Translations under genes and position numbers: made by a program
Notes under the pieces: generated by a model
What the model was told of the DNA's origin: nothing
What the model saw: the letters and a program-made list of their open reading frames with translations, nothing else
The model's database searches: none
In this document: one piece after another, positions 2,807 through 20,688 of the stretch
How positions within the stretch are numbered: the first letter of the stretch is position 1
Layout of the letters: each line of letters begins with the position of its first letter
Virus record (IMG/VR): IMGVR_UViG_3300047321_000324
Span: 1-20,688 of that record
Source of the DNA: a virus
Reading direction: 5' to 3' (one strand)
DNA: 20,688 nt

Positions 2807-2833
2807 TTGCCAGTGCGTTAAACAAGATTTAAT
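2807..2833 (+). promoter_or_regulatory. Candidate promoter, possibly leaderless, for the SNF2 helicase
   Basis: TTGCCA (2807-2812, five of six to TTGACA) and TTTAAT (2828-2833, five of six to TATAAT) lie 15 nt apart, a short spacer. The -10-like box ends 8 nt before the ATG at 2842, and no Shine-Dalgarno sequence is visible, so transcription could begin at or next to the start codon. This rests on pattern matching alone. Confidence 0.35.
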
Positions 2834-2841
2834 GTACTGGC

Positions 2842-4857
2842 ATGAACGAGGTTACGAACGCGGAGACGAAAACAGTGGAAGTCGAAGATCTGGCGCAGTG
2901 GTCAGACGGGAAGACAGTTTTAACCCCACGGGGCGAGAGACTGTTGCGGACAGCTGAACCCACGGATCAGTTCAGGGCGGCGTGGAAGGCGAACAAGCCT
3001 GCCATGCAAGCGATGGGGTTAGGTTGGAGCAAACACCCCCAGACAGACGTTTGGAAGATCTGTTGGTGGCAGTCGGTGCAACCCGAGGCGACAGCGGACA
3101 AGATCGAGGCGGTTCTTTCCAGCGCGGCGACCAATGCCCAGATCGAAATTCCGGCTCCGAAAGGATACGATTATCTCGGTTACCAGAAAGCCGGGATCGC
3201 TTACGCTTTAGCTCGCCCCGGCACATTGATCGGGGATGAGATGGGCCTCGGAAAGACTATACAGGGCATCGGGGTCATCAACGCCGACACCTCAATCAAG
3301 TCGGTTTTGATCGTTTGCCCGGTTACCCTGAAACTCAACTGGTATCGGGAATTGAAGAAGTGGCTGACCCGCCCGATGACAATCGGGATCTTGGAAGGCA
3401 AAAGCTGCAAGACTTCAGCGGACATCGCGATCATCAATTTCGATATCCTGCACCGTGCCCCGGCCGTAGTGGAAAAGACCTATGATCTGGTCATCGTGGA
3501 CGAGATTCACAAGATCAAGAACGGGGCGACTTTGAGGGCGAAGGCAGTCATGAAGATCAAGGGTCGTCGGCGGATCGGGATGACCGGGACACCGATTTTG
3601 AACGGCAAGCCAATCGAGTTGTTCACCTCTTTGAACTGGTTGGATCCGCAGTATTGGACGGGCAAAAAAGGGTTCTACGCTCGCCGGTATTGCAACGCTC
3701 ATTCCACCCAATTCGGTTGGGACGATACCGGAGCCAGCAACCTCGATGAACTGAACACCTTGTTGCGGTCGAAATGGATGGTGCGCCGATTGAAGAAAGA
3801 CGTCTTGAAAGATCTACCGGCCAAAGTCCGTCAGGTGATCGAGATCGAGGCAGACAAGAAAATTCAGGCGGTCATCGCGGCGGAACTGAACAAGTGGGAG
3901 AAGTACGAGACGGCGCTGGATACGGCTGAGGACGAGGTGGTCAAAGCCAAGATGGACGACAACCAAGACGCCTACGAAGAAGCTGTGGCGAAACTGAAGG
4001 CAGCTCGTCGGGTGGCCTTTGAAGAGATGGCGCAAGTTCGGCACGCCACCTCGGTCGCCAAAGCCCCTTACGTGGCGGAATTCATCGCCGAAACTCTGGA
4101 CGACAAAGAGGGCAAGATTGTGGTGTTCGCCCATCACAAGGATGTGGTCGAGATTTTGATGAACACCTTAAAAGAGTTTCACCCGGTCAAGGTGACGGGC
4201 GACGTCAGCGCCAAGAACAGGGACGAAGCGGTTTCGATCTTCCAGAACGACAGCAAATGCCGGGTCTTCGTCGGGAACATTCAAGCGGCGGGAGTCGGGT
4301 TGACCTTAACGGCGGCGAGTCATGTGATCTTCGCCGAATTAGATTGGGTCCCGGCCAATGTCACCCAAGCGGAGGACAGATGCCACCGGATCGGGCAACT
4401 GGACTCAGTGCTCTGCCAGCACATCGTTCTGGCCGGATCGCTGGACGCCAAGATGTCCCGGACAATCGTCAGCAAACAGCGGATCGCGGATCAGGCCCTC
4501 GACAAGAAAGTGGCGGTCACTGCTCCCGCGGAATTGGCGCCCAAGGTCAACGGCCACACGGTGACGGTGCCCGGTAAGTTGACGGTCACGGTCCCGGCGC
4601 AGCAGCAGGAAGCGGTAATCCCGATCGAGAAAGTGCAAGCGGCCCATCAAGCGATGAAGATGCTGGCCGGGATCTGCAACGGGGCGGTCAGTCTCGACGA
4701 GATGGGGTTCAACAAGCTGGACACCAAGTTTGGCAAGGATCTGGCGAGCAGGGCATCACTCAGCCAGAAGCAAGCAAAATACGCGGTGATGTTGGCTCGC
4801 AAGTACAAGAGACAATTACCGACCCAAATCCTCTCGGTGATCGGGGTCGAGAAATAA
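2842..4857 (+). CDS. SNF2-family (SMARCAL1-like) DNA helicase/translocase
   Basis: This 671-residue superfamily 2 ATPase carries the full SNF2 motif set: motif I GDEMGLGKT (131-139), motif II DEIH (220-223), motif III MTGTP (247-251), the RRLKKDVLKDLPAK segment, motif V GVGLTLT and motif VI QAEDRCHRIGQ (509-519). A Lys/Glu-rich helical insertion (about 335-405) splits the C-terminal RecA lobe. About 110 residues before motif I may form a HARP-like substrate domain. The extreme C-terminus (KQAKYAVMLARKYKRQLP) resembles the tail seen in phage SNF2 proteins. These enzymes translocate on double-stranded DNA and remodel forks. With VRR-NUC and ParB neighbours, a role in phage replication or recombination is likely. 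It lacks a Shine-Dalgarno site. Confidence 0.95.
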   Translation: MNEVTNAETKTVEVEDLAQWSDGKTVLTPRGERLLRTAEPTDQFRAAWKANKPAMQAMGLGWSKHPQTDVWKICWWQSVQPEATADKIEAVLSSAATNAQIEIPAPKGYDYLGYQKAGIAYALARPGTLIGDEMGLGKTIQGIGVINADTSIKSVLIVCPVTLKLNWYRELKKWLTRPMTIGILEGKSCKTSADIAIINFDILHRAPAVVEKTYDLVIVDEIHKIKNGATLRAKAVMKIKGRRRIGMTGTPILNGKPIELFTSLNWLDPQYWTGKKGFYARRYCNAHSTQFGWDDTGASNLDELNTLLRSKWMVRRLKKDVLKDLPAKVRQVIEIEADKKIQAVIAAELNKWEKYETALDTAEDEVVKAKMDDNQDAYEEAVAKLKAARRVAFEEMAQVRHATSVAKAPYVAEFIAETLDDKEGKIVVFAHHKDVVEILMNTLKEFHPVKVTGDVSAKNRDEAVSIFQNDSKCRVFVGNIQAAGVGLTLTAASHVIFAELDWVPANVTQAEDRCHRIGQLDSVLCQHIVLAGSLDAKMSRTIVSKQRIADQALDKKVAVTAPAELAPKVNGHTVTVPGKLTVTVPAQQQEAVIPIEKVQAAHQAMKMLAGICNGAVSLDEMGFNKLDTKFGKDLASRASLSQKQAKYAVMLARKYKRQLPTQILSVIGVEK

Positions 4858-6510: not shown

Positions 6511-6945
6511 ATGGCTGGGGTCATCTCGAATTATTATCGGGCGCTGATGTTGGATTACGGCATCAGCAACACCTTATTTACCCCTCCCCCGTTCTTATGG
6601 GTGGCCCTCTACAATCAATCGCCGGGTGCGGGTGATGTCGGGCTGGAATTGGCTGCTAACGGATCGGTGATGCCAGACGGGACGCTCTCGAATTACGGGC
6701 GAATCAGCCAGCCTAATTCTTTGGGCAGTTGGGGATTCACAGTATTGGGAATCAAAACCAACGCCTCGAATATCGCGATCCCGACCCAAACGGGGACTAT
6801 GGGCGTGGTCTTGAGCGTTGGGTGGCGCGATGACCAGTTTGCGGGCAACCTCTTGTTTTCCTGCGACCTCAATACCCCGATCACCATGAACCCGGGATCG
6901 AGCATCCTCTGGGTACCGGGCGATTTCAGCATCATATGGGCTTGA
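6511..6945 (+). CDS. Virion-type beta-rich structural protein (head/tail fibre-like)
   Basis: This 144-residue protein has AGGA at 6502-6505 as ribosome site. The layout matches small phage structural proteins often labelled head-fibre or tail-fibre-like: an N-terminal helix, then LWVALYNQSPG, an NYGRISQ segment (analogue of the usual 'GYARQ'), a beta segment, the GWRDD-x-AGNLLFSCDL strand pair and a C-terminal PGSSILWVPGDFSI. That pattern of 'new product, value, slot filled by alanine/glycine strands' recurs in such proteins and suggests an all-beta virion surface component. The assignment is by remembered pattern, so moderate. Its last 10 nt overlap the glycosyltransferase-like gene. Confidence 0.55.
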   Translation: MAGVISNYYRALMLDYGISNTLFTPPPFLWVALYNQSPGAGDVGLELAANGSVMPDGTLSNYGRISQPNSLGSWGFTVLGIKTNASNIAIPTQTGTMGVVLSVGWRDDQFAGNLLFSCDLNTPITMNPGSSILWVPGDFSIIWA

Positions 6946-7907: not shown

Positions 7908-8110
7908 ATCCTGATAATCAAGTAGCGGGTCACGACGAGGACGGACAAACGTTGGAAAAACCGGTTAAGAAAAGCTTCTCGGCTAAATCCCCCAGAGCCA
8001 AGACCAAGAGTATGCAGCACAAGAACTTGGGCGGTATGCGGAACGTGGCGGACACCAAAAAAGCACCAATCGTCAAAGGCAATTCCGGCACCGATGTTGA
8101 AGGTTATTAA
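7904..8110 (+). CDS. Small basic, probably disordered protein
   Basis: This 68-residue polar protein is rich in Lys, Ser, Gly and Asp (KKSFSAKSPRAKTKS). It is coupled to the upstream zinc-ribbon gene by ATGA, with an AAAGG ribosome site, and overlaps the ParB-glycosyltransferase gene by 17 nt. No fold or family is apparent. The coupled position suggests it is expressed together with the fusion enzyme downstream. Confidence 0.65.
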   Translation: MNPDNQVAGHDEDGQTLEKPVKKSFSAKSPRAKTKSMQHKNLGGMRNVADTKKAPIVKGNSGTDVEGY

Positions 8111-9659
8111 GAAACCGAGGAAAGCGCCCACCCTAGAGAAGATGGGCGATATCGAGGATCATCTGGTGATCGATCTGAAGATGGCTCCTGCTAATCCCCG
8201 GATCCACAGTGAACAGAACGTCAAGAAGATCGCTCAATCGATCAAGACGTATGGCTGGACCACTCCTGCCTTGATAACGGATGATCTGGAGGTGATCGCA
8301 GGGCACGGGCGGGTGATGGCGGCGAAGCAATTAGGGATAATCTCGGTGCCCTGTATCAAACTCAGTCATCTGACACCCCAATTGGTGGAGGCTTACCGGA
8401 TCGCCGATAACAGGTTGGCGCTCGATTCAGATTGGGACAACGAACTGTTGGCCGAATCTTTGAAGAAATTGTGGGAAGGGAAAGATTTCGACCTCCTGTT
8501 GACCGGCTTTGAAGAGATCGAGATCGCCTCACGCCTGGCCATCGGGATCGAGGACCCGTTGAAAGCCTGGCGCTCGATGCCGGAATACGATCAGCAAGAC
8601 CTGATGCCGTGGAAAACGGTGATGGTCCATTTCAAGGATCAGGAAGGGTTAGACAAGTTCGCCGCATTGGTGGACGAAAAGATCGGGCCGAAAACCAAAT
8701 ACATCTGGTACCCGCCCTCTGAGATCCAGATGGTTTCAGATAAACGTTGGGTCGGTGTAAAAAAAAAGAGAAATCCGACCTATCCGATCTATATCCCGTC
8801 CAAAGGCCGGTACGAAAGCCGCCTGACCGCTAGGGCCCTCGATCTGATGGGGGTCCCTTACACCATGGTGGTCGAGGAACAGGAATACCCAAAGTACGCC
8901 GCCGTCATCCCGAAAGAGAAAATCCTCGTCCTCGACAAGAAGTATCAGCGCGATTACGACACCTTCGATATCGCCAATAAAAGCAAAGGGAGCGGCCCAG
9001 CCCGCAACTTCATCTGGGATCACGCCCAATCAATCAATTCAGGGCGGCATTGGGTGATGGACGATAATGTCAACGGGTTCTGGCGCCTGTGGCGGAACAC
9101 ACGAATCAGGGTAGCTGACGGCACAGTCCTCAAGTGTATGGAGGATTTTGCCGCCCGATATTCTAACGTAGCTATTGCTGGCCCCACCTTCCTGCAATTT
9201 GGGAAACGCAAACAGCGCCAGCCACCCTTCATCTTGAACACGCGGATTTGTTGTTCAATGTTGATCCGCAACGATATCCCTTTCCGATGGCGCGGGCGTT
9301 ACAATGAGGATCTCGATTTATCCTTGAGGGTCATGAAGGCAGGGTATTGCACCATCAATTTCGTGGCTTTCTTGCAACATAAGATGACCACCATGACCAT
9401 GAAAGGCGGCAACACCGATATCCTGTACTCAAAAGGGACCACCGCCAAAGCTTCCATGACCGCCGCCCAGCATCCGGACGTTTGCCGGGTCATAGCAAGG
9501 TTCGGCCGAGTGCATCATTACATCGATTATTCGCGATTCAAAGGACTGGGCCTTATCATGCAAGATGGCCTCAAGATCAAAGACGGGATAGACAATTACG
9601 GAATGCGATTGGAGCAATATGAGACCGATCAGGAAAAACAAAACCAGTTCAACCCCTAA
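8094..9659 (+). CDS. ParB-TAGT fusion: predicted DNA-base glycosyltransferase
   Basis: This 521-residue multidomain protein starts with a ParB/sulfiredoxin-fold domain (about 20-150) with GHGR at 70-73 and the IADNRLALDSDWD segment typical of ParB domains fused to phage DNA methylases. Next comes a small alpha/beta adapter (about 178-225, PWKTVMVHF ... KTKYIWYP). The C-terminal glycosyltransferase domain (about 230-460) opens with YPIYIPSKGR, has the DD metal/nucleotide-sugar motif at 323-324 (WVMDDN) and a second acidic motif EDLD at 405-408. This matches the TET/JBP-associated glycosyltransferase (TAGT) type, predicted to add sugars to modified pyrimidines in phage DNA. ParB probably guides it to DNA. 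No TET/JBP hydroxylase is in the window. It overlaps terS by 41 nt. Confidence 0.8.
   Translation: MLKVIKKPRKAPTLEKMGDIEDHLVIDLKMAPANPRIHSEQNVKKIAQSIKTYGWTTPALITDDLEVIAGHGRVMAAKQLGIISVPCIKLSHLTPQLVEAYRIADNRLALDSDWDNELLAESLKKLWEGKDFDLLLTGFEEIEIASRLAIGIEDPLKAWRSMPEYDQQDLMPWKTVMVHFKDQEGLDKFAALVDEKIGPKTKYIWYPPSEIQMVSDKRWVGVKKKRNPTYPIYIPSKGRYESRLTARALDLMGVPYTMVVEEQEYPKYAAVIPKEKILVLDKKYQRDYDTFDIANKSKGSGPARNFIWDHAQSINSGRHWVMDDNVNGFWRLWRNTRIRVADGTVLKCMEDFAARYSNVAIAGPTFLQFGKRKQRQPPFILNTRICCSMLIRNDIPFRWRGRYNEDLDLSLRVMKAGYCTINFVAFLQHKMTTMTMKGGNTDILYSKGTTAKASMTAAQHPDVCRVIARFGRVHHYIDYSRFKGLGLIMQDGLKIKDGIDNYGMRLEQYETDQEKQNQFNP
8759..8768 (+). other. A9-G slippery run at the domain boundary of the ParB-TAGT gene
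   Basis: Nine A residues and a G in frame (GTA AAA AAA AAG) contain the A-AAA-AAG heptamer known as a -1 ribosomal slip site in dnaX. It falls at residues 222-225, between the ParB/adapter part and the glycosyltransferase part. Slipping either way meets a stop within about 25 codons, giving a ParB-adapter-only product. No clear downstream stem or upstream anti-SD enhancer was found, so function is conjectural. Confidence 0.35.
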
Positions 9660-10128
9660 AAAGCACTATCGACGCCGCCCCGGACAAGCGGCGGCACAGT
9701 CAAAATTGAACGATGAAACTCAAGAGAAAATCTGTGGGTTCATTGCGGGCGGATTGCGGTTAGAGGACGCTTGCAGATTGTCAGGGGTACATCGGACAAC
9801 GGTCTGGTTATGGAAGGACAGGGGGAACGCCGGCGAACAGCGGTACAAAGAATTCTTGGATGCAGTCGAGTTGGCGGAAGTCAAAAGCAAGGCCCTCTTG
9901 TTGGCGGAAATAAGAAGGGATCCGGATTGGAAAGCTAAGAAATGGATCTTGATCAACCGGTTCCCGAAAGAGTTCAGGGATTACATCACCCAAGAGATTA
10001 CCGGCGTGGACGGCTCCCCGATGTCCCTGGCTCCTTTTGTGGTCAATTTCACCTTGCCGCCCCCGGACAGCACAGAGTTCACGACGATTGATCATTCGGG
10101 AACCAAGGAAATAGAGAATGCCCGCTAG
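9619..10128 (+). CDS. terS: Terminase small subunit-like protein
   Basis: This 169-residue protein has a basic N-terminus (KKHYRRRPG), then a helix-turn-helix of the homeodomain-like type (about 31-65, GLRLEDACRLSGVHRTTVWLWKD), a helix with LLLAEIRRDPDWKAKKWIL, then FPKEFRD and an extended C-terminus. This layout is seen in phage small terminase-type DNA-binding proteins, which recognise the packaging site and recruit the large subunit. Position 0.8 kb upstream of terL supports the call. GGAG at 9611-9614 is the ribosome site. It overlaps the ParB-TAGT gene by 41 nt. An alternative is a generic HTH regulator. Confidence 0.7.
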   Translation: MRPIRKNKTSSTPKKHYRRRPGQAAAQSKLNDETQEKICGFIAGGLRLEDACRLSGVHRTTVWLWKDRGNAGEQRYKEFLDAVELAEVKSKALLLAEIRRDPDWKAKKWILINRFPKEFRDYITQEITGVDGSPMSLAPFVVNFTLPPPDSTEFTTIDHSGTKEIENAR

Positions 10129-10905: not shown

Positions 10906-12327
10906 ATGCTGGTAGATGAAGAGACCCAAGGTAAGAGCCCGATCATTGATATCAGGCTGCACCCTAAACAGGCGCTTGTTCTGCGATCACCGGCCAATGA
11001 GATCTTGTTTGGTGGCGCGGCGGGTCCGGGTAAATCGTATCTGGCGCGAGCGGCTGCCATACTCTACTGCATTGAGATACCGGGCCTACAAGCATATCTG
11101 TTTCGACGCACGTTCCCTGAATTGTTGCAAACACATCTTGAGGGTCCTGGCAGTTTCCGGGTTATGCTCGCCCAAGCTCAGGAAGCGGGACAAGTTTCAA
11201 TCGTTAAAAATGAGATTAGGTTTGCTAACGGCTCTCGGATAAGTCTGAACCATTGCCAGTACGAGGGGGACGTGTACCGGTTTCAAGGGGCAGAAATGCA
11301 CATTCTGGAGATAGACGAAGTAACCCACTTTTCCAAAAAGGTGTACACCTACTTACGTACTCGCTGCAGGTTAGGGACGTTAGAGATCCCGGATCGTTAC
11401 AAAGGTAAGTTCCCATTCGTACTCTTAACATCAAACCCCGGTGGCGCCCATCACACATGGGTAAAAGAGGATTTTGTCGATCTTTGTTCGGAAGGCGGGG
11501 CGAACGTGATGCACAGGATGAGCGACGCAGACGGCGGGATGTTGAGATCGTTCATCCCGGCGTTCTACCATGACAACCCCTCTCTCTTGGAGAACGACCC
11601 GCAGTATTTAGCGAAACTCAAAGGAGTCGGCGACCCAGAGGTGGTCAGAGCGTTGGTTTACGGCGATTGGGATGTGGTCAGTGGCGCGATGTTCAGCGGA
11701 TCATGGCGCAAAGACATCAATGTCTGTCATTCGTTCGCGATACCGGAAGGATGGGAGATCTGGCGCGGAGCCGATGACGGGTACAACAATCCTGCGGCTG
11801 TCTTGTGGTTCGCAAAGGACCCGGTGATGGACAGGACTTATGTGATCTCGGAATTGTACGAATCAGGACTATTGCCAGAAACGATGGCGGCAAAAGTCCT
11901 CGAACGCGATAAACGGATCGCGATTATGAATTACGGGCAGATTCCCGGAGAGAACGCCCATTCGCTGGTGGGTATCATTGATCCGGCGACGTTCGCAAAC
12001 ACGGGGACAGGGGCAGCAGCACGCGGGGATGCGATGAATAAGATGGGGTGCCAATGGCGAGCGGCAGAGAAATATCAGGGATCGCGTGTGCACGGCGTTC
12101 AGCATATTCACAGGTTGCTCGCCCCGACTAAAGACGGAATTCCGAAACTGGTGATCTTTGAAGCGTGCAAGACGTTGATCAAAGCGATACCGACCGTCCC
12201 CAGGGACGAAGAAAACCCCGAAGATATCGATGACGAGTTTGAGTACAGCCATGTGCTCGATGCTCTGAGGTACGGATTGCAATGGCGGGATCAAAGCTTC
12301 AAGCGAACACGACTGAGAGGATTTTAG
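10906..12327 (+). CDS. terL: Terminase large subunit
   Basis: This 473-residue packaging motor shows both terminase activities. The ATPase has Walker A GGAAGPGKS (36-44) and Walker B ILEIDE (Asp137-Glu138), preceded by a LFRRTFPEL segment. The C-terminal RNase H-like nuclease has its acidic triad in RGADDG (Asp290), GIIDPA (Asp359) and SHVLDALRY (Asp452). It pumps DNA into the prohead and cuts concatemers. AAGG at 10895-10898 supports the ATG at 10906. The length is normal and no lesions are visible. Neighbouring terS, HNH and portal genes confirm a tailed-phage packaging module. Confidence 0.97.
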   Translation: MLVDEETQGKSPIIDIRLHPKQALVLRSPANEILFGGAAGPGKSYLARAAAILYCIEIPGLQAYLFRRTFPELLQTHLEGPGSFRVMLAQAQEAGQVSIVKNEIRFANGSRISLNHCQYEGDVYRFQGAEMHILEIDEVTHFSKKVYTYLRTRCRLGTLEIPDRYKGKFPFVLLTSNPGGAHHTWVKEDFVDLCSEGGANVMHRMSDADGGMLRSFIPAFYHDNPSLLENDPQYLAKLKGVGDPEVVRALVYGDWDVVSGAMFSGSWRKDINVCHSFAIPEGWEIWRGADDGYNNPAAVLWFAKDPVMDRTYVISELYESGLLPETMAAKVLERDKRIAIMNYGQIPGENAHSLVGIIDPATFANTGTGAAARGDAMNKMGCQWRAAEKYQGSRVHGVQHIHRLLAPTKDGIPKLVIFEACKTLIKAIPTVPRDEENPEDIDDEFEYSHVLDALRYGLQWRDQSFKRTRLRGF

Positions 12328-12364
12328 TTGTCACCAAGGCGGGGTGCAGGAGAGAATCGGAGAC

Positions 12365-12649
12365 ATGAACGAATTAGACGAAAGCGTCCCGATCTGGGTC
12401 GGGTTATGTGACGAGTTCGGGAACGAGTTTCCAATTCAACGAACCAAGCTGATTCGCGGCGATATCATGTTTTCAATGCGGGAACTGGAGTCCGATATCC
12501 AAGTCTTTTATTTCAGGTTCTTTGACGCACCGGAAAACGGTAGGTGCACCAAGCTGTTCCCGTTAACGATCTCGCAAGTGTTATGCCCGGGCGACGTGGC
12601 GATGTTCGCCCACGGGGATATCGTTATGAGGGAACAAGACCTTTTGTGA
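12365..12649 (+). CDS. Hypothetical protein in packaging module
   Basis: This 94-residue ORF has its ATG chosen at 12365 because AGGAGAG at 12348-12354 lies 10 nt upstream. A GTG at 12344 would add seven residues and contain that site. The protein looks beta-rich (IQVFYFRFFD ... LCPGDVAMFAHGDIVM) and acidic. No family is recognised. It follows terL by 37 nt. Confidence 0.7.
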   Translation: MNELDESVPIWVGLCDEFGNEFPIQRTKLIRGDIMFSMRELESDIQVFYFRFFDAPENGRCTKLFPLTISQVLCPGDVAMFAHGDIVMREQDLL

Positions 12650-12684
12650 ACCGAAGCTGGAATGGAAGCGTGGAAGAGGCGAGG

Positions 12685-13122
12685 ATGATCAGCGCACAAA
12701 TCCCGCCTTGGAAACCGTTACAACCCTTGGTAATCGCGGAAAAAGACGATCAGCGGGAGATATGGTTGAATGATGTTTATCGGATAAAGATAAATCGTCA
12801 CTTCGGCGTAAACGCTTTCGGCGAGGGCCTGTGGTCGATAATCCAGATCAGTGCCAGAGACGGGAGCGCCCGTCACGATTGGCGCGATATGCAGGCGATC
12901 AAAAACCAGATGGTCGGTGAGGAATGGGAAGCGTTAGAGATCTTCCCGGCTGAATCTAGATTGATAGATCCCTCGAACTGTTACCTGCTTTATTGTTTTC
13001 AGAAAATCCCGATTGGAATGTTCCAACCTCGCTGTGTGTTGGGATCTAAAGAAGCGATTTCACCGCAACGCGGGTGGATAGAACAAGATGAAAAACCGAA
13101 CGAGAATCAAAAGACGAACTAA
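12685..13122 (+). CDS. DUF7694-like phage protein
   Basis: This 145-residue protein contains the pattern of a small phage family: WSIIQISARDGSARHDWRDM, then IKNQMVGEEWEALEIFPAES and a Ser/Asn-x-Tyr-Leu-Leu end strand. Members are common near phage structural or early genes and have no known function. AGAGG at 12675-12679 favours the ATG at 12685. A GTG at 12646 overlapping the previous stop (GTGA) would add 13 residues and cannot be excluded. The family name is from memory and should be checked. It overlaps the HNH gene by 35 nt. Confidence 0.65.
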   Translation: MISAQIPPWKPLQPLVIAEKDDQREIWLNDVYRIKINRHFGVNAFGEGLWSIIQISARDGSARHDWRDMQAIKNQMVGEEWEALEIFPAESRLIDPSNCYLLYCFQKIPIGMFQPRCVLGSKEAISPQRGWIEQDEKPNENQKTN

Positions 13123-13423
13123 CGAACGCGCACGAGAAGAAAGAAAATATCTCAAGCGCCTCCCCTCATGGTTGGCAGAACACCCGTTCTGTAAAGCGTG
13201 CCATGCGATAGATAAACATCTGAGCGGACAATACGGAGCAGGCAGGCCGACAAACCAATGTCATCACAAGGCAGGGCGGCATCATAGCTTGCTCAATCTG
13301 GAACAGTACTGGTTGCCGGTCTGCGGGCCGTGCCACGATTGGATCACCAGCCACGGGAGAGCAGCTCGCGGCCTCGGGTTAAGTATCGATCTGCCGGTTG
13401 AACTGGGATTGAAAACGCGCTAG
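13088..13423 (+). CDS. HNH endonuclease
   Basis: This 111-residue protein has a basic N-terminus (KNRTRIKRRTNER), structural zinc pairs C35-x2-C38 and C79-x2-C82, and a beta-beta-alpha-metal core with HHKAGR (59-64), Asn70 and His83. Such HNH proteins next to terL and portal are known to work with the terminase in genome cutting and packaging in HK97-like phages. The position here, between terL and portal, fits that role. It may also be a stand-alone host-DNA nuclease. No lesion is seen. Confidence 0.9.
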   Translation: MKNRTRIKRRTNERAREERKYLKRLPSWLAEHPFCKACHAIDKHLSGQYGAGRPTNQCHHKAGRHHSLLNLEQYWLPVCGPCHDWITSHGRAARGLGLSIDLPVELGLKTR

Positions 13424-13523
13424 CCTTCTGGCGCAGTGAAAAATCGTTTGTTGGTACAAGCGATCCCTCTTTGATTGGAAAGCGGAATGCGGTCAAAGAG
13501 CACTGCCTTTTTCTTTGTAAGCT

Positions 13524-13551
13524 TTGTATTCAGCGGTAAACCGTTTATAAT
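13524..13551 (+). promoter_or_regulatory. Candidate promoter with embedded operator-like palindrome
   Basis: A perfect TATAAT (13546-13551) has a weak -35 TTGTAT (13524-13529, 16-nt spacer). The expected transcription start falls at or 1 nt before ATG 13559, so the transcript may be leaderless. TAAAC-C-GTTTA (13537-13547), a perfect inverted repeat, overlaps the spacer and the first bases of the -10 box, a typical place for a repressor site. It lies in the 135-nt gap 13424-13558, which otherwise shows only a weak CAAAGA/TCTTTG stem. Confidence 0.55.
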
Positions 13552-13558
13552 GCCGATC

Positions 13559-14068
13559 ATGGCTGAGAAAGAACACCTCCCGAAAGAGGTAACCCCTGAA
13601 CCGGACAAAAGTCATCAAGCAGGCCATTCGTTAGCTGCTGAGAGACGTTCGGATAACCCGTCAACCAGAGCTCGCAAACCGGAAGATGATTTCGACCCCA
13701 CCGCGCCGCCGACCGCACCTTATGGCGACCCGAAGATGAGTCCGGATGAGATCCCCTTAGCTTCGCACCCGGACCCGGAGGTTGACCCTTATGTCACGCA
13801 CGACGCTGCCCAGCCGATCGGCACAGGACGGCTCGACCAAGCGTTGGCAGAAGCAGACGCAGGTTTGCGCGAGGATTCACCTGAACTGGAGGATGAAAGT
13901 AATCGCCGGATTCATGGCAGGCACCATGAGAAATTCGGCGGACGCCCACTGGAGTCAGGACCGCCGGCCCAACGGATGATTCATCCTAAGCAGCCGTTGG
14001 CGGGTCTGAATCACCCGGTACCGCATACCTTCACCTCGGAGGAGCCGAGAGAAGAGGGAAAGAAGTAA
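13559..14068 (+). CDS. Disordered Pro/Glu/Asp-rich protein in head module
   Basis: This 169-residue protein starts at the ATG at 13559, just after a perfect TATAAT. An ATG at 13550 lies inside the -10 box and a TTG at 13475 lies upstream of it, so both are unlikely. The protein is low-complexity and charged (DFDPTAPPTAPYGDP, HPDPEVDPYVTHD), with His-rich segments near the C-terminus. No fold is recognised. The position between HNH and portal allows a scaffold, decoration or packaging accessory role, all inference. Confidence 0.65.
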   Translation: MAEKEHLPKEVTPEPDKSHQAGHSLAAERRSDNPSTRARKPEDDFDPTAPPTAPYGDPKMSPDEIPLASHPDPEVDPYVTHDAAQPIGTGRLDQALAEADAGLREDSPELEDESNRRIHGRHHEKFGGRPLESGPPAQRMIHPKQPLAGLNHPVPHTFTSEEPREEGKK

Positions 14069-14073
14069 GGAGG
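14067..14073 (+). promoter_or_regulatory. Strong Shine-Dalgarno site
   Basis: AAGGAGG sits 4 nt before ATG 14078 and overlaps the upstream stop codon TAA (14066-14068). It is the best ribosome site in the window, predicting high translation of the small protein that follows. Confidence 0.85.
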
Positions 14074-14077
14074 AAGC

Positions 14078-14302
14078 ATGTCCACATTTATCATTGTAGA
14101 CTCCACCGATACGGGCTCGTACATGCGGGACGCTCGTCTGACTAACAACGACGGCACAGTGGGGATGGTGCAGACAGCGGACTCTATCGATATCTCCTGC
14201 AAGACGACGGTAGACAATCTGCTGACGGCCCTCAAGACGGCGGCGGCACAGACCACCTACACGGCGTTCGCGACGGCTCTCATTGCAATCCCGCTCCCGT
14301 AA
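14078..14302 (+). CDS. Small, probably highly translated head-module protein
   Basis: This 74-residue protein is Thr/Ala/Asp-rich with no Lys clusters (FIIVDSTDTGSYMRDAR ... LLTALKTAAAQTTYTAF). It has the strongest ribosome site of the window, as expected for a protein needed in many copies, such as a virion decoration or minor structural component. I recognise no family. It is too short for a usual major capsid protein. Confidence 0.65.
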   Translation: MSTFIIVDSTDTGSYMRDARLTNNDGTVGMVQTADSIDISCKTTVDNLLTALKTAAAQTTYTAFATALIAIPLP

Positions 14303-14336
14303 GTCAAAGTAAACAAAAGGAAGGTTTTCAATTCTT

Positions 14337-14537
14337 ATGGCTAACAACGTTCCAGTAGACACCAGCACCATCGGGCGGACCGCACCGACGGCGAAAAGCG
14401 GCGACAACATCCAAACCGGACCTCCGGAAGGGAAACGCAACCCGACAGGGAAAGTGACTGAGGATACTATCACGGCGAAGAATCTAGTCCCACGCGCTAA
14501 GTCGGATTCGTTCCCCGGGATTAAGAATCCAACCTAA
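14337..14537 (+). CDS. Small polar protein in head module
   Basis: This 66-residue protein is rich in Thr, Lys, Gly, Pro and Asn (TAPTAKSGDNIQTG ... PRAKSDSFPGIKNPT) and is probably unfolded alone. AAAGGAAGG about 13 nt upstream could be its ribosome site. It ends 21 nt before the portal gene. The function is unknown. Confidence 0.6.
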   Translation: MANNVPVDTSTIGRTAPTAKSGDNIQTGPPEGKRNPTGKVTEDTITAKNLVPRAKSDSFPGIKNPT

Positions 14538-14558
14538 AAAGCCCTGACCATTTCTTAA

Positions 14559-16184
14559 ATGGCCATCCAATTAGCTGTCGTCCCGACGACGGGCCCACCC
14601 TCGACGTCGGCACTGCAGCAACCGAAGGTTGATACCCCGCATCCTTCGTATGATTACTACGCCGGGACCTGGCAACGGATTCAGGATTGCCTGGCTGGCG
14701 TAGACGTCATTCGCAAGCAAGGGGTAAAGTATCTCCCGCTTCTGTTCGATCAGGAGCCGATGGAGTACGAAGCCTACAAGCGGCGAACTAAGTTCGTTAA
14801 TTTCACGGCGGCAACCACCGAGATGTTGTCAGGATTCATCTTCCGGAAAGATCCCGAACAAACGGTCCCGCCCGAGTTTGAAGTGTTCTTGGACGATTGC
14901 ACCCTCTCTGAGCGGACGTGGTACGAATACATGAAAGAGGTGGTCTATGCCACCTGTTCAGTGGGTCGGTGCGGCACATTGATTGATTGGAGCAAGGAAG
15001 AGAACCGACCGTACCTTGCCCCATATACCGCAGAGCAAATCATCAATTGGAAACAGGCGCGGATAAACGGCAAGATGCTCCTGACCTTGTTGGTGTTGCA
15101 GGAGGAAGCGCCGGTAGAACAGGAGAAAGAGAACGCCGACATGTTCTCGCACGAGAAAGAAACCCATTGGCGGGTTTACCGGCTCGATCAGTCAGGCCCA
15201 ACCCCGTTTGTCATTTGCGAGTTGTGGCGCAAGAACGAGCAAGATAGGTTTGAGATCTTCAAGCAATCAACTCCGACCAGGCGCGGGGACGGGTTAGAAC
15301 AGATCCCGTTCATTTTTCACGGTTCAATTGATACCGATCCAGACATTAATCGGGCGCCCATGACTGATATCTCGGATCTCAATATCAAGCATTACATGTT
15401 GTCGGCCGATCTGGAGAACGGGCGGCATTATTGCGGGTTGCCGACCCCATTTGCCAAATGTTTCGATACCAAAGCTGAAGACGAGTTGCGGGTCGGGTCA
15501 GGGATCGTGTGGACCACCGACAATCCCGCGGCTGAATGCGGGTATCTGGAATTTCATGGGGACGGACTGAAAAGTCTGGAGACTGGGATAGTCGAGACCG
15601 AAGAACAATTGGCTGCATTGGGTGCAAGGATGTTGGAGAAACAGTCGGGCACCGAAGCCTATCAAACGGTCTTGATGCGGCAATCAGGACAGACAGCAGC
15701 ATTGATCCAGACCTCGGAGGCGTGTTCACTGAGCCTGACACAGGTGTTACACTGGGTTGTCTGGTGGACGGGCTCCCAGGCGATTCCAAACGACGTAGGG
15801 AAGCTGGCTGAGATCAAGCTGAACACCGATTTTGTCGATGTGCAGTTGGTCAGGGGCGAACTCACCGAAGTAATGGCGTTATGCAGCGGAGGATTTATCA
15901 GCCGGCAAACGTTCCATGAATTTCTGCAACGAGCGGAATTGATCCCTGCTGATCGCGATCTGGAAGACGAGATGGCAATGATCGATTCGATGCCGCCACC
16001 GGGATTGATGGGGACCCAAGGTCAGATCGGTATCCCGTTAAAGCCACCGGAACAAACCCAGATCACCACCATGAAAGGGAACGGGAACGGGACAGCATCA
16101 GGAGACGGCAAACGTGGTCAACGGCCCTCACGCGGTGGTGGGCAATCGTTACAAACTTACCAGAACGTTCCTCCGCCGAAATGA
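14559..16184 (+). CDS. Portal protein, DUF4055 type
   Basis: This 541-residue protein matches the phage portal families typified by DUF4055: YYAGTWQRIQDCLAGVDVIRKQG, the YLP segment, a Y-x-x-Y-KRRTKFVNFTAATTEML-G core (about 70-95), then GRCGTLIDW, ISDLNIKHYM and the C-terminal GGFISRQTFHEFLQRAELIPAD. The portal forms the dodecameric ring at one capsid vertex through which terminase feeds DNA. The last 60 residues are Gly/Pro/Gln-rich and disordered. No Shine-Dalgarno site is visible before the ATG. The next small gene is coupled by ATGA at 16181. Confidence 0.9.
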   Translation: MAIQLAVVPTTGPPSTSALQQPKVDTPHPSYDYYAGTWQRIQDCLAGVDVIRKQGVKYLPLLFDQEPMEYEAYKRRTKFVNFTAATTEMLSGFIFRKDPEQTVPPEFEVFLDDCTLSERTWYEYMKEVVYATCSVGRCGTLIDWSKEENRPYLAPYTAEQIINWKQARINGKMLLTLLVLQEEAPVEQEKENADMFSHEKETHWRVYRLDQSGPTPFVICELWRKNEQDRFEIFKQSTPTRRGDGLEQIPFIFHGSIDTDPDINRAPMTDISDLNIKHYMLSADLENGRHYCGLPTPFAKCFDTKAEDELRVGSGIVWTTDNPAAECGYLEFHGDGLKSLETGIVETEEQLAALGARMLEKQSGTEAYQTVLMRQSGQTAALIQTSEACSLSLTQVLHWVVWWTGSQAIPNDVGKLAEIKLNTDFVDVQLVRGELTEVMALCSGGFISRQTFHEFLQRAELIPADRDLEDEMAMIDSMPPPGLMGTQGQIGIPLKPPEQTQITTMKGNGNGTASGDGKRGQRPSRGGGQSLQTYQNVPPPK

Positions 16185-16324
16185 ATCCGGTAATCATCGC
16201 CATCCCGATGTTCAAGAATCCGCCGGGCCCAGCCCCGAAAAAGACTGAGCGGCAAAAGGTGGAACGCGCTCAGGTGCGCTACGAACAAAGAGAACAACGA
16301 CGAGTCAGACCGAACATGCGATAA
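16181..16324 (+). CDS. Small basic protein coupled to portal
   Basis: This 47-residue ORF starts at the ATG overlapping the portal stop (ATGA). It is Pro-rich at the start (IPMFKNPPGPAPKK) and then strongly basic and Gln/Glu-rich (ERQKVERAQVRYEQREQRR), likely one charged helix. It may be a virion or nucleic-acid-binding accessory. Coupling is the main support, and no family is known. Confidence 0.55.
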   Translation: MNPVIIAIPMFKNPPGPAPKKTERQKVERAQVRYEQREQRRVRPNMR

Positions 16325-16337
16325 TGTCCGCGTGCTA

Positions 16338-16520
16338 ATGCGGATCACGGCAACGGCATTTTGTGCAGGGTTTGTCATGGACGACGATGGCCTAAACGTT
16401 ATCAGGTGCGCCCCGATTTTGCGTTCGATCTTCAAGCGGGCGAACGCCCGAACGATGGAAGAAATCCAAGCCCTCTGTAAACACAGAGGTTGGGTCTTAC
16501 ACATCTTGCACGAAAAATAA
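16338..16520 (+). CDS. Small phage-type hypothetical protein
   Basis: This 60-residue protein has the pattern ITATAFCAGFVMDDDG, VIRCAPILR and a C-terminal helix with CKHRGWVL, which I associate with small uncharacterised phage proteins of the 'AGLVLD..G.V.RAAPILR' type. A GTG at 16332 is an alternative start, lying 6 nt after a GATAAT box (16320-16325). The function is unknown. It is the last gene before the HTH/T4SS-like region. Confidence 0.65.
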   Translation: MRITATAFCAGFVMDDDGLNVIRCAPILRSIFKRANARTMEEIQALCKHRGWVLHILHEK

Positions 16521-16533
16521 GGTTGCTGGTTAC

Positions 16534-16550
16534 TGAAACTAGGCGTTTCA
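16534..16550. promoter_or_regulatory. Operator copy 1: TGAAAC-N5-GTTTCA
   Basis: A perfect 6-bp-arm inverted repeat (TGAAAC, TAGGC, GTTTCA) lies 12 nt before the HTH gene start. The same 17-bp design recurs at 16814-16830. It overlaps a weak promoter match (TTGCTG 16523-16528, TTTCAT 16546-16551, 17-nt spacer). Autoregulation by the HTH protein is the natural inference. Confidence 0.6.
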
Positions 16551-16562
16551 TCCTCATTCAGG

Positions 16563-16766
16563 ATGACAAACGAAGATCTGATAAAAATGCGCCTACGGCT
16601 CAAGATGAGTCAGCGCCAATTCGCCATCGCGGTCGATACCTCAAATATGTCGATTGTGCGGGGCGAACGCCGGGGTCCATCCCAACTGCTGGAATACAAG
16701 ATCGAAAATGCCCTGCGTGAGGGGAGGCTCAACCTGACCAAGATCATTACGGACCCAGGCGAATAA
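16563..16766 (+). CDS. Small XRE-like HTH regulator
   Basis: This 67-residue protein is nearly all a helix-turn-helix domain: LIKMRLRLKMSQRQFAIAV, TSNMSIVRGERRG and LLEYKIENAL fit helices 1-5 of a Cro/XRE fold. It is short, like phage Cro repressors. Two copies of the same 17-bp inverted repeat flank it, one just before its own start and one before the VirB2-like gene, so it probably represses itself and the T4SS-like operon. Regulation is inferred from these sites, and binding is untested. Confidence 0.75.
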   Translation: MTNEDLIKMRLRLKMSQRQFAIAVDTSNMSIVRGERRGPSQLLEYKIENALREGRLNLTKIITDPGE

Positions 16767-16813
16767 AAAAACAAATCAGTCTTGACGAAATCAGTGAAAT
16801 AACCGACACACGT

Positions 16814-16830
16814 TGAAACACGATGTTTCG
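16814..16830. promoter_or_regulatory. Operator copy 2: TGAAAC-N5-GTTTCG
   Basis: TGAAAC, ACGAT, GTTTCG matches copy 1 in both arms except the last base, with the same 5-nt spacer. It lies 40 nt before the VirB2-like start in the 104-nt gap 16767-16870. Nearby are a direct repeat AAATCAGT (16773-16780, 16788-16795), a lone TTGACG (16782-16787) without a matching -10 box, and CGAAAC (16848-16853), able to pair with GTTTCG. Confidence 0.6.
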
Positions 16831-16870
16831 CAAAGGAACACAAACAACGAAACGATAGGAGAAGGTAAAG

Positions 16871-17131
16871 ATGATGATTTTATTGGATATCGTCCAAGCG
16901 GCTAACCCCCAAGCGATTTGGCGATATGTTCAAGAGGGTTTATCGCTCGTCGCGGTTTTCATGTTCGTTAAAGCCTGCGTCTTAGCGTGGCAAGCGTTCA
17001 ATCACGACAGGGCACAGGGGAACTGGCAGCACGGGATTGTCTCTTCGGTAGGGATCATGCTGGTGCCGACCATGATCGGGATGCTGAGCGTCTTGTTCTG
17101 GAACATACAGCCACCGCCGATGTGGCAATGA
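16871..17131 (+). CDS. VirB2/TrbC-like pilin-type membrane protein
   Basis: This 86-residue protein has two hydrophobic helices (about 23-40 and 56-77) separated by a polar loop (FNHDRAQGNWQHG), the layout of VirB2/TrbC pilins and their relatives. It lacks a long cleavable signal peptide; the N-terminus is short. In type IV secretion VirB2 forms the pilus or channel subunit. The assignment rests mainly on size, two membrane helices and position directly before VirB3- and VirB4-like genes. AGGAGAAGG (16857-16865) is a strong ribosome site. The stop overlaps the next start (ATGA). Confidence 0.55.
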   Translation: MMILLDIVQAANPQAIWRYVQEGLSLVAVFMFVKACVLAWQAFNHDRAQGNWQHGIVSSVGIMLVPTMIGMLSVLFWNIQPPPMWQ

Positions 17132-17478
17132 TCCGGGACACCAAAGCGCGATGGCGACACCGGAACAGGTTCATGGGGATCGACAACGGGCACAAGCCGG
17201 TGATGTTCTCGGTTTATCTCTCGGTGTTGGTCATGATGTTGGCGGCGTTATCAGGGATGTGGACGCTGATTGCTATCGGGGTGCTGCCGTTCTGCTGCAC
17301 CTGGGTTTATTTGAAATTGCTTCACACGGGACGGAGGCCTGCCTTCGCACGCGACATGGTGTTGTCGGTCGGGCCGCACACACGGTCACGGCGGCTTCCG
17401 TTCCGACGTTTTCTACCAGAGCACCCATGTCAGGAGAGGGGGTTACGTGCAGTTAGAAAAGACCAAGCGGTTAATTAA
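17128..17478 (+). CDS. VirB3-like inner-membrane protein
   Basis: This 116-residue protein starts at the ATG coupled to the VirB2-like stop; an in-frame upstream ATG at 16987 lies inside that gene and is rejected. It has a basic N-terminus, two adjacent membrane helices (about 25-42, 46-63) and a basic cytoplasmic tail with RRPAFARD. This fits VirB3, which anchors VirB4 at the inner membrane and helps pilus formation. It overlaps the VirB4-like gene by 32 nt. Sequence is not diagnostic alone; gene order is the best evidence. The tail is unusually Arg-rich. Confidence 0.55.
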   Translation: MIRDTKARWRHRNRFMGIDNGHKPVMFSVYLSVLVMMLAALSGMWTLIAIGVLPFCCTWVYLKLLHTGRRPAFARDMVLSVGPHTRSRRLPFRRFLPEHPCQERGLRAVRKDQAVN

Positions 17479-20200
17479 GCAACTGACCCGGCAATCGGTC
17501 ACGCGGATCAGTCGGGCGGCGATGCCGAACGGGTTCTTTCTTAACAATCTCCTGTGGTACGGAGACGGGTTAAGCGATCAGACAGCTATCACACGCGGCT
17601 TCTTGATTGAGCCGGCCGAACTGGAATCGATGGATCTATTATCGATTGAAGATCAATCAGCGCGGCTAAAGTCGTTACTAGCGACGCTGGGGCAAAGCTA
17701 CAACGCCCAGATCAAGTACACGGTCGGGAACGATTTCTCGGATTATCTGGAGAAGTACAAGCGGGATACTGACGCTATCGTGGATCGGTACAGGTTCAGG
17801 TGGCAGATCTGGAGTCGGACAGAGCGGCACGCACGGTTGATGGATGAGATGGAGAACGGGAAACTGCGGAGGGAAACTTTGGCGGTTTTCATTACGAAGG
17901 TGATCGATTCGCAACCGGATTTCACGGTATCAGAATCAGCGTTGCGCGGACATTTCGAGGAGTTGTCAATCAGTCAGGCGAAAGAATTCGAGCAAGTGCA
18001 GTTGGACGTCCTCAATTCCCGGTTCCCAGAATGCCGGATCAAGCTGATGGGCGATCAGGAACATTTCGATTATTATTACAAGTTCTTAAACCCCAGCCTC
18101 GGGACCCGGCGCCCGCCGCAAGACATGTTCGACGGGACACTCTCGATCTTGGAGAATTGTTTATCGGGCGATTTCCATCAACCGCCCAAAGCTGGGGTAT
18201 CGTTCCAGTTGGACAAGTACAATCACGTCATGATGGTGATGCGGGAATTGCCGAAGTTCGTCGGGGACGGGATGATCGCTAAAGTCTTGGGGTTCGCGTT
18301 CAACGATTTCGAGATCACGGTCAACGTTTACCCACTGCAACCGCATGAAGTGATCAAGAAATTGGGCGCTATCACTAACGAGTTGATCGGCGAAGCGGAG
18401 AGAGACCATGTGATGCGGTTTAATCTGGGCGAAGAAGCGAAAATGGGTAAGGAGCGGCTCGACGATTTGAATCGTGGGCACATGAACCCGGTCAACGTCT
18501 TTTTCGCGATGCGGATCTGGCACCGGGACGCGGACAAATTGATCAGTCACGCTTCGATTGCTAGGAACGCTTTCTCGGGGATGGCAGGAACGATAGTGCA
18601 TCACGCGACGATGACAGAAACTAGCGCCCAATTGTTTTATAACACGTTCCCGGGCTGGACCTATTCGACTTATCGGGATTGGGACCTGCTTACGGACGAC
18701 GCGGTGGCGGCGGATCTGCTCCCCTGGTCGGCCTCGTTCACCGGGAAACTGGATCAAGCCGAAGCCCTCTATACCTCGCCTTCTGGCGCGTTGGTCGGGT
18801 TAACCCTCCATATCGGAAAGACCGGGCAACACGCCTTGATCTTCGGGATTACGGGTGCCGGCAAATCGATCTTGCTGAGCGATCTGCTCTCTCAGGTTTT
18901 GCAGGACTACGATTATGTCTTGATCGTCGAAGAAGGGTTGAGCCACGGGACTACGGTCCAGACGGCCGGAGCGAACCCGATCGTCATCTCGCCGAACACC
19001 GGGACCACCATCAATTATCTGGACGTCAACCAGATCCCGTTAGGGAACGAGCATCTGTCGTTTGCGGTCACCTTATGCCTGCAGATGTTGCGGGAAAGTC
19101 AGGGAAACCAATCGCGAGTCAGCGAGATTCAAGCGGTCTTGAGCCAGCATCTCGAAAGCCTGTACGATGATGCGTGGGAAGAATGGTCACACGCCCACCC
19201 GGAAGAAACCCGGAAGATCGAGCATCGAGCGTATGTCGTTCACCAGTACTGGCAAAACATGGCAGGATTCGGGAACACCTTTATTGATGCGTGGACGGAA
19301 TTACGGGAAGAGAAAGAGCAGGATTGGAACGAGCAAGACGCTCTTAACGTGGCGAAGTTCGCCGTGGATCCTTTGACCAAACGTTACGTGCGGAATCTGG
19401 GGTTGGCGACCATGAGCGCGGACGATATGCCGACTCATTCGGAGTTGGTCGAGAACATGATTCACACCCCGGAAACGCCGGAAGCTAAGAAGTTAGGCGA
19501 ACGGTTGAGTGCGTGGAATGCCAGCGGGATATACGGCAAGATCTTTGACGGCAAAACCAACACCCGGTTGGACGGGTCAATCACCCACATTGAATTGGGT
19601 CAGATCCCAGAGGCGATGAGCGAGTTGCGGGCCATCGCCCATTTCCTGATGCTCAATGTAGCAATGCAACAAGTCATGAAACGTCCGCGCGGACAGAAAA
19701 AGCTGGTGATATTCGAGGAGGGAGCCCGTATCATCGCCATGCCGGGAGGAAGCGATGCTCTTAAGCGTTATTATACTACTGCTCGGAAATTTGGCGCTGT
19801 TGTGGTCACGGTATTGCAACAAGCGTCGGCGTTATCAGCAGCCGACCCCACGCTACGGGCGGCAGTGGTTGACAACACGAAACTCTTTCTGGTATCGGCA
19901 CAGCCAAGCGTTCAGGCGGCGGCTGAGATTGCCAAGATGCTCGGCCTATCACCGCAGGCGAAAAAGACCCTTGAAGGTTACCCAACCCCAGACAACCAGA
20001 CCGCTGACGAAAAGTTCGGGTCGTTTCTAATGGTGGTGCCGGACACCCGGCGCAAACTGGTTGGCACCCTGCGCAATTACGCGAGTCCGGAAGTGGTCTA
20101 TTGCGGAGCCAGCGACACTGAAGTCTTCGATAAACGGACGGAAGTTTTGAAGGGGTACGACGATATCGTTGAAGGAATTTTAATCGAATCACGCAAATGA
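17447..20200 (+). CDS. VirB4/TrbE/TraC-type T4SS ATPase
   Basis: This 917-residue ATPase begins at a GTG with AGGAGAGG upstream (about 17432-17439). The first 400 residues form the CagE/TrbE/VirB N-terminal region, including SHASIARNAFSGMAG and TYRDWDLLTDDAVAADLLPWS. The C-terminal RecA-like motor has Walker A GITGAGKS (467-474), a Walker B strand LVIFEE ending in Glu757-Glu758 rather than the usual Asp-Glu, and VTVLQQ (788-793 region) near the C-terminus. VirB4 powers pilus assembly and substrate transfer at the inner membrane. Length is normal to slightly long. It follows VirB2- and VirB3-like genes, and no VirB1, B5-B11 or coupling protein is in the window. ATGA couples it to the next gene. 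Confidence 0.9.
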   Translation: MQLEKTKRLIKQLTRQSVTRISRAAMPNGFFLNNLLWYGDGLSDQTAITRGFLIEPAELESMDLLSIEDQSARLKSLLATLGQSYNAQIKYTVGNDFSDYLEKYKRDTDAIVDRYRFRWQIWSRTERHARLMDEMENGKLRRETLAVFITKVIDSQPDFTVSESALRGHFEELSISQAKEFEQVQLDVLNSRFPECRIKLMGDQEHFDYYYKFLNPSLGTRRPPQDMFDGTLSILENCLSGDFHQPPKAGVSFQLDKYNHVMMVMRELPKFVGDGMIAKVLGFAFNDFEITVNVYPLQPHEVIKKLGAITNELIGEAERDHVMRFNLGEEAKMGKERLDDLNRGHMNPVNVFFAMRIWHRDADKLISHASIARNAFSGMAGTIVHHATMTETSAQLFYNTFPGWTYSTYRDWDLLTDDAVAADLLPWSASFTGKLDQAEALYTSPSGALVGLTLHIGKTGQHALIFGITGAGKSILLSDLLSQVLQDYDYVLIVEEGLSHGTTVQTAGANPIVISPNTGTTINYLDVNQIPLGNEHLSFAVTLCLQMLRESQGNQSRVSEIQAVLSQHLESLYDDAWEEWSHAHPEETRKIEHRAYVVHQYWQNMAGFGNTFIDAWTELREEKEQDWNEQDALNVAKFAVDPLTKRYVRNLGLATMSADDMPTHSELVENMIHTPETPEAKKLGERLSAWNASGIYGKIFDGKTNTRLDGSITHIELGQIPEAMSELRAIAHFLMLNVAMQQVMKRPRGQKKLVIFEEGARIIAMPGGSDALKRYYTTARKFGAVVVTVLQQASALSAADPTLRAAVVDNTKLFLVSAQPSVQAAAEIAKMLGLSPQAKKTLEGYPTPDNQTADEKFGSFLMVVPDTRRKLVGTLRNYASPEVVYCGASDTEVFDKRTEVLKGYDDIVEGILIESRK

Positions 20201-20688
20201 AAGAATCAGACGCCCACCCGCACATTGACGCTGAACGAGCCGACTTGTTCTCAACCTTCGACGGCGGATCAACTGAGATTGAATATCTGGACTTTTTAAC
20301 CGCTCTGGTCCGGGTAGAGAAACCGGAACTAATCTTGGAGACAGGGACCTTCAAAGGATACGGAGCAGTTGCTTTGTTAAGGGGATGTAACGCCAACGGG
20401 TTCGGCAAGATTGTGACTTTGGATATCGATCAGACCCAGCACGGGAAAGATATCTCGGATCGGGTTACCTACGTGGAAGCCGACAGCATGGAATGGATCA
20501 AGAGGACGGATCTCAGGTTTGATATGGCGTTCTACGATTCTTCGTTACCGATCCGCCTGGCCGAATTCAGGTTGAGTGCAGACCGCGGAGTGCTCAAGCC
20601 GGGATCATTGGCGATCTTTCACGACACCTCTAAAACCCGAACTCTCTGGCTGAAGAATTCGCGAGCTATTGTGCAGGACCCGGAAACC
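20197..20688 (+). CDS. SAM-dependent methyltransferase, Methyltransf_24-like (truncated by window end)
   Basis: At least 164 residues are encoded, starting at the ATG coupled to the VirB4-like stop, with no stop before the window end. The Rossmann-type SAM site is visible: ILETGTFKGYG (motif I, about 46-56), KIVTLDID (acidic end of strand 2, about 71-78), a conserved Asp region EADSMEW, FDMAFYD and AIFHDTS. The pattern resembles small-molecule or sugar O-methyltransferases and the related cephalosporin-hydroxylase-like group. It does not show a DNA methylase DPPY motif. Substrate is unknown; a glycan or pilus-related target is only a guess. Confidence 0.8.
   Translation, partial: MKESDAHPHIDAERADLFSTFDGGSTEIEYLDFLTALVRVEKPELILETGTFKGYGAVALLRGCNANGFGKIVTLDIDQTQHGKDISDRVTYVEADSMEWIKRTDLRFDMAFYDSSLPIRLAEFRLSADRGVLKPGSLAIFHDTSKTRTLWLKNSRAIVQDPET

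Follow-up and report, generated by a model that had tools for sequence, protein, structure and literature searches.

Related phages and the organisation of the locus

In the protein families considered here, the small terminase subunit (TerS) marks the DNA, which the large subunit (TerL) then translocates into a procapsid by way of the portal, a mechanism that is established. Among the described relatives, Xanthomonas phage Xp15 has the genes for TerL, portal, a scaffold-type protein and capsid back to back. Dinoroseobacter phage R5C, an isolated phage, and Pseudanabaena phage Pan1 (Nanhaivirus) have a portal of the DUF4055 type, a block of small genes between TerL and portal and further genes, including one for ribonucleotide reductase, between portal and head genes. 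The present analysis concerns the virus record IMGVR_UViG_3300047321_000324, which is linear, 20,688 bases long and was examined whole (the window). In it a DUF4055-type portal gene is followed by genes that resemble part of a type IV secretion system (T4SS). The window is probably a fragment of a DUF4055-portal tailed phage with a T4SS cargo at the junction between portal and MuF, the minor head protein, and with its head genes lying beyond position 20688.

The packaging genes were identified by scanning 30 window proteins against PHROGs and 20 against Pfam, six small open reading frames (ORFs) upstream of TerL being in neither set:

9619..10128, + strand: TerS, terminase small subunit (phrog_4102, E 5e-21; the Sf6-type Pfam family is below its cut-off)
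10906..12327, + strand: TerL, terminase large subunit (phrog_979, 3e-39; PF03237; 48% identical to the TerL of locus L062)
14559..16184, + strand: portal, DUF4055 type (phrog_145, 4e-113; PF13264, 5e-28)

The portal scored 98 bits against PF13264 (DUF4055), for which the cut-off is 25. TerS and TerL lie upstream of it, all on one strand, and by comparison with known families both the portal and the gene order fit the DUF4055-portal tailed phages. Hidden Markov models (HMMs) of portal and TerL were also made with the window's own proteins among the seeds, so that their matches to the window arise by construction. The record has no end repeats, thus genes absent from it cannot be read as lost, and it is probably a fragment of a longer genome.

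The window's portal is about 30% identical to those of R5C and Pan1, with which it shares the small-gene block and the presence of other genes ahead of the head genes; it differs from them in that their cargo includes ribonucleotide reductase and that the search of the phage collection matched no VirB4 gene in them. TerL and portal are 39% and 32% identical to those of Xp15, from whose compact arrangement the window departs. Labels of the form L### denote loci compared in this analysis, among them L062 (IMG/VR contig 3300037882_002329) and L066 (3300017766_003746, 59 kb), which have TerL 47-48% and portal 35-39% identical and a gap of 2.2 or 6.3 kb between the two genes. Unlike the window they have a MuF match, which begins 7 or 52 bp beyond that of the portal, and VirB4 was not found in them.

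Head genes in the window and in its relatives

Profile HMMs were built from annotated relatives, one set each for MuF, for scaffold and for two groups of capsid proteins, and matched nothing in the six frames of the 20.7-kb window. These profiles rest on few seeds and misses are likely; the MuF profile did match loci outside its seeds, such as L045, L050, L077 and L093. Ten head proteins compared with the window by tblastn gave nothing better than E 0.64, and no protease, scaffold or capsid family was matched by the window proteins scanned in PHROGs and Pfam. The 4.5 kb from the portal to the end of the record are included in this result. One gene product is likely to be a virion protein, judged by its family, and had been overlooked:

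6511..6945, + strand: gp80-type fibre / head protein (PF23140 gp80 fibre family, 3.5e-15; phrog_240 'head protein', 1.5e-5)

In this fragment it is the only candidate tail gene among the window proteins scanned against the libraries.

The relatives show where head genes are to be expected. Between TerL and portal, no head-gene match was found in any of 37 related loci (13 loci whose sequence belongs to, or continues, a record present in another locus were left out of this count). Each of the 14 annotated phage records examined has a head gene downstream of its portal gene, and in 13 of them one starts no more than 4.5 kb away; the exception, R5C, has its MuF gene at 7.3 kb and its capsid gene at 12 kb from the portal. 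These records comprise 8 of 16 'spread' records plus 2 plus 4, with H83 being Pan1 and already counted, and H85, H86, H88, H89, H96, H97 and H98 left out; for Halfdan, HdSG1 and VhaS-tm, where the neighbours of the portal gene carry the label hypothetical, the gene counted was one labelled structural, coat or capsid. A further 33 portal loci have at least 4504 bp after the portal, and in 23 the head gene starts within that stretch. In eight it lies at 4.9-6.6 kb, so that a head gene further from the portal is not rare. No head gene was matched in the remaining two, L199 and L232, the latter having ORFs of MuF and capsid size (read by size). The portal loci compared are the best 80 of 163 confirmed; they include close relatives of one another (e.g. 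L168-L189), and the head-gene count additionally takes in L156 and L201, the same records as L066 and L063, so these counts are not independent. All distances to head genes are between profile matches.

In L062, L063 and L066 the order is TerL, gap, portal, MuF, with 7 to 52 bp separating the MuF match from that of the portal, and in L062 and L066 the gene after the portal matches a PHROG for 'head morphogenesis' at about 1e-96. In other loci, such as L157 and L159, it is a scaffold match, not MuF, that starts almost at the portal stop. The 59-kb record of L066 and L142 continues from portal to MuF, scaffold and capsid, the capsid being 7.3 kb after the portal.

The sequence-only reading had described 12328-16520 as a packaging module without recognisable capsid, protease, scaffold or MuF protein. 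The presence of terS, terL and portal and the absence of these head genes are both upheld by the searches. The surprise attached to the absence is not, head genes being found between TerL and portal in none of the 37 related loci. The absence at 12328-16520 is weak evidence, since in this group the head genes follow the portal, beyond which the record extends for another 4.5 kb only. The observation is correct and its significance was overstated; the anomaly lies 3' of the portal and not in the TerL-portal interval.

The T4SS-like genes after the portal

The window after the portal contains the following candidates:

16332..16520, + strand: 62-residue protein with GTG start, which may not be a gene (phrog_33614, E 0.018; no Pfam match)
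16563..16766, + strand: candidate small regulator of helix-turn-helix type, weak (phrog_14076 transcriptional regulator, E 0.0022)
16871..17131, + strand: membrane protein in the VirB2 position, pilin-like by place only (position; TIGR03745, E 0.024)
17128..17478, + strand: VirB3-like protein (hhalign score 27.3; the best of 30 shuffles reached 14.7)
17447..20200, + strand: T4SS ATPase of VirB4/TraC type (Walker A GITGAGKS; PF19044, 1.4e-10, above cut-off)
20197..20688, + strand: S-adenosylmethionine-dependent methyltransferase, truncated by the contig end and overlapping the VirB4 stop (PF13578, 6e-11)

The content of the junction is thus a possible regulator, the VirB2-position protein, the VirB3-like protein, VirB4 and the methyltransferase. 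A match of the 62-residue protein in L060 (E 0.009) was set aside as chance: it is on the strand opposite to VirB4 and a longer open frame overlaps it. The VirB2-position protein reached an hhalign score of 19.6 over 70 columns, and at least one of 30 shuffles scored higher (maximum 21.8). The VirB3-like protein has no match worth naming in Pfam, PHROGs or NCBIfam. VirB4 matched TIGR02746 of NCBIfam at 6e-24, below the curated cut-off, and had no sequence relative in the PDB at E 0.01. Its match to a terminase large subunit (phrog_2666, 1.6e-9) was rejected as a shared P-loop; the label is a trap for automatic phage annotation. Relaxase, coupling protein and VirB5-VirB10 were not found among the window proteins scanned against the libraries, the contig ending one gene after VirB4.

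The affinity of VirB4 was examined with a degenerate DNA motif derived from the window gene and two Opitutaceae plasmid homologues, which was scanned against GTDB genomes and viral contigs. It was found in 27 stretches of GTDB genomes, all of which encode a VirB4 relative (tblastn, 27-35% identity) and all of which, from their titles, we take to be from Verrucomicrobiota; the same motif had no match in the viral contigs. The window VirB4 keeps Walker A and also the Walker B 'EE' of eight genome homologues aligned with it; TAV5 has DE. Partial, distant matches to TraC of other bacteria lie on plasmids. The nearest VirB4 kin found, by sequence similarity, are thus type IV secretion genes of Verrucomicrobiota. 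The Opitutaceae TAV5 plasmid CP007054 and many Verrucomicrobiota loci resemble the window in having a small membrane protein, a VirB3-like protein and VirB4 in that order. They are unlike it in that several loci continue into further T4SS-like ORFs (own reading) and that no DUF4055 portal was found in the 24 genomes searched. In a Termitidicoccus mucosus plasmid (L008, 18001-20500) the VirB4 homologue is broken up across several reading frames, its pieces being annotated as individual hypothetical proteins.

The window VirB4 matched two of 50,697 phage records by tblastn at E 0.01, a search that did not extend to T4SS genes of other kinds. Both are Streptococcus phages with a TrsE-like gene, and the match covers more than 20% of the query. 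A literature search, to which most subscription journals were closed, gave no title or opening of an abstract on a DUF4055 phage with VirB4.

The junction between portal and MuF as a cargo site

Several relatives carry other genes where the T4SS-like genes lie in the window. Ribonucleotide reductase, with other genes, lies between portal and head genes in L002, R5C and Pan1. Fibre-like and collagen-like genes lie between portal and MuF in L185 (1595-8138), and similar ORFs indicate such cargo at the same junction in L184 (9500-13051); these two loci belong to a set of closely alike viral contigs. Since relatives carry ribonucleotide reductase or fibre-like genes there, the comparison of gene orders identifies this junction as a site for cargo.

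Applied to the window, TerS would mark the DNA and TerL would pump it through the portal into a procapsid, by analogy with these families. The procapsid genes (MuF, scaffold and capsid) would follow the portal, and here would be found past 20688. A cassette of at least 4 kb, comprising a possible VirB2, the VirB3-like and VirB4-like genes and the methyltransferase, would occupy the portal-MuF junction and so displace the head genes past the end of the record. It was most likely taken from a conjugative element of Verrucomicrobiota. VirB2-3-4 form the pilus-assembly end of a T4SS, and so a first guess from family membership is that the cassette would change or poison the conjugation pilus of the host. 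A more ambitious proposal is that a tailed phage of Verrucomicrobiota uses a T4SS pilus-assembly part within its head-gene cluster during infection or as a prophage, either altering the host pilus or conjugating its own genome in addition to making virions; this we consider improbable. Should VirB2-VirB3-VirB4 truly belong to the head-gene cluster of a phage, this would tie conjugation to phage morphogenesis. Phages of Verrucomicrobiota are little known. The missing capsid gene is itself expected from the gene order of the group, and it is the T4SS genes in the head-gene cluster that would matter.

Alternative explanations

The main rival to a single phage genome is that the contig is a chimaera, a phage fragment misjoined, somewhere in the interval 16185-16870, to a plasmid or an integrative element of Verrucomicrobiota carrying VirB2-3-4. 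The kinship of VirB4 agrees with this account: all 27 motif matches are in Verrucomicrobiota genomes, and the TAV5 plasmid shows the same gene order by our own reading. The expected MuF gene is also absent right at the portal stop, where the T4SS block begins. Several results weigh against the favoured reading. The 80 other portal-bearing viral loci gave no VirB4 (just 33 of them extend 4.5 kb past the portal), nor did 12 viral records searched over their full length or four scans of viral contigs, made with VirB4 alone, two alignments and the DNA motif. A second genome with a portal-T4SS junction was not found. None of the 24 Verrucomicrobiota genomes with VirB4 had a portal (26 of the 27 motif stretches, L035 being left out as its accession prefix is that of L009), and this negative is backed by a search in which the same portal query did match 8 of 387 genomes; none of those eight Verrucomicrobiota genomes had VirB4. 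The head genes are not seen directly, the record ending at 20688, and the VirB2 match does not rise above shuffled sequences. The tetranucleotide composition of the last 4 kb correlates at 0.88 with 12-16 kb and at 0.78-0.86 with earlier segments, against 0.84-0.89 for segments of the phage part with the rest of that part, a comparison that is not decisive. Scans for promoters, terminators and repeats found no boundary mark. Other properties of the contig argue against a join. VirB4 has a G+C content of 53.7% and the phage part one of 53.3%, giving no seam, whereas 26 of 28 VirB4 homologues are more than 2 points from 53% and only 2 are within 2 points. Six phage genes span a range of codon usage that includes that of VirB4, and the genes to either side of the supposed join share direction. 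Eight 20-kb T4SS loci contain no match to the methyltransferase that overlaps the VirB4 end, and in four of six Verrucomicrobiota loci VirB4 is followed by small lipoprotein-like and VirB5-like ORFs (own reading) where the window has the methyltransferase. On balance a chimaera seems unlikely, though still a serious contender.

Two further explanations would do without head genes past 20688. A satellite or a defective element, with packaging genes retained and capsids borrowed from a helper phage, as the sequence-only reading had allowed, would account for the lack of head genes in 20.7 kb, and terminase-only islands may exist, one Verrucomicrobiota genome (L037) having terL but no portal match. 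The window, however, holds TerS, TerL, portal and a fibre-like protein, no integrase was found among the window proteins scanned, and the absence of genes from a record without end repeats cannot be taken as loss. A terminase pair and a portal of a known virion family, in an order shared with phage relatives of which the 59-kb record also has head and tail genes, make a satellite very unlikely. The remaining explanation is that the small proteins of 13559-14537 are themselves a head module, serving as scaffold, decoration or capsid of a new kind. None of them convincingly matches a known family, and the one at 14078-14302 has a very strong ribosome site; but two of them, of 74 and 66 residues, are too small for a capsid protein of HK97 fold, the relatives carry the usual capsid gene after the portal, and none of the three was matched in 80 TerL loci. 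Of all the explanations this appears the most far-fetched. The suggestion that the capsid genes lie beyond the T4SS-like block is the part of the sequence-only reading that we favour, from the 14 records with a head gene after the portal and from the junction cargo of relatives, and it stays unproven as the record ends at 20688.

Positions 14676-19965 of L037 hold terL with integrase-, ATPase- and terS-like ORFs (own reading), a small island that may be a terminase-bearing satellite or a remnant.

The interval between TerL and portal

The interval contains the following predicted genes:

12344..12649, + strand: small protein, weakly gp80-fibre-like in its C-terminal half, start codon uncertain (PF23140, E 0.0069, under cut-off)
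12544..13122, + strand: DUF7694 / phrog_7839 protein (PF24746, 2.6e-10; phrog_7839, 3e-12)
13088..13423, + strand: HNH-like endonuclease, weak (phrog_740, E 0.002; no Pfam match)
13559..14068, + strand: acidic, proline-rich protein of 169 residues, probably disordered (open frame from 13475)
14078..14302, + strand: 74-residue protein with the best ribosome site (phrog_5004, E 0.018 only)
14337..14537, + strand: 66-residue polar protein (no family match in PHROGs, Pfam or NCBIfam)

The true start of the gene at 12544-13122 is probably further in because of the overlap with the preceding ORF. The HNH gene had been reported without reservation and is supported here by the weak match only. The earlier description of the three small proteins at 13559-14537, the first disordered and acidic, the second with the best ribosome site of the window and the third polar, holds up here. 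The first has 33 D+E, 21 K+R and 25 P among 169 residues and no family match in PHROGs, Pfam or NCBIfam, and 14078-14302 has the strongest pairing to the anti-Shine-Dalgarno sequence of 39 positions tested (-12.1 kcal/mol), VirB4 being next (-11.7). Fold prediction, which had been proposed for such proteins, was run on single sequences and was unusable, with a predicted local distance difference test score of 50 for the 74-residue protein and 53 for 12368-12646.

The search of the TerL loci with these three proteins was by tblastn at E 1e-3 in the best 80 of 574. The TerL-portal gap is at least 1.5 kb in 9 of the 37 related loci with TerL upstream of portal, and it is 2.2 kb in the window, 2.2 kb in L062 and 2.4 kb in L063. 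Because of these long gaps and the similar intervals of near relatives, 12328-14537 is, by this comparison, a variable spot.

Other genes of the window

Upstream of the terminase genes, 334-4857 encodes a VRR-NUC nuclease, a ParB-like protein and a SNF2 helicase. PADLOC matches of the helicase to ZorD and DpdE were taken as general SNF2 likeness, and a scan of viral contigs with SNF2 alone gave no viral relative. The gene at 8094-9659 joins a ParB-like N-terminal part to a TET-associated glycosyltransferase (PF20691, 1e-39), the latter part being 42-44% identical in Aeromonas phages of 221-233 kb. This fusion may point to sugar-modified DNA. Viral contig L064 keeps the order small gene, ParB-like gene, ParB-like part of the fusion, TerL, and viral contig L121 matches both parts of the fusion with their order kept.

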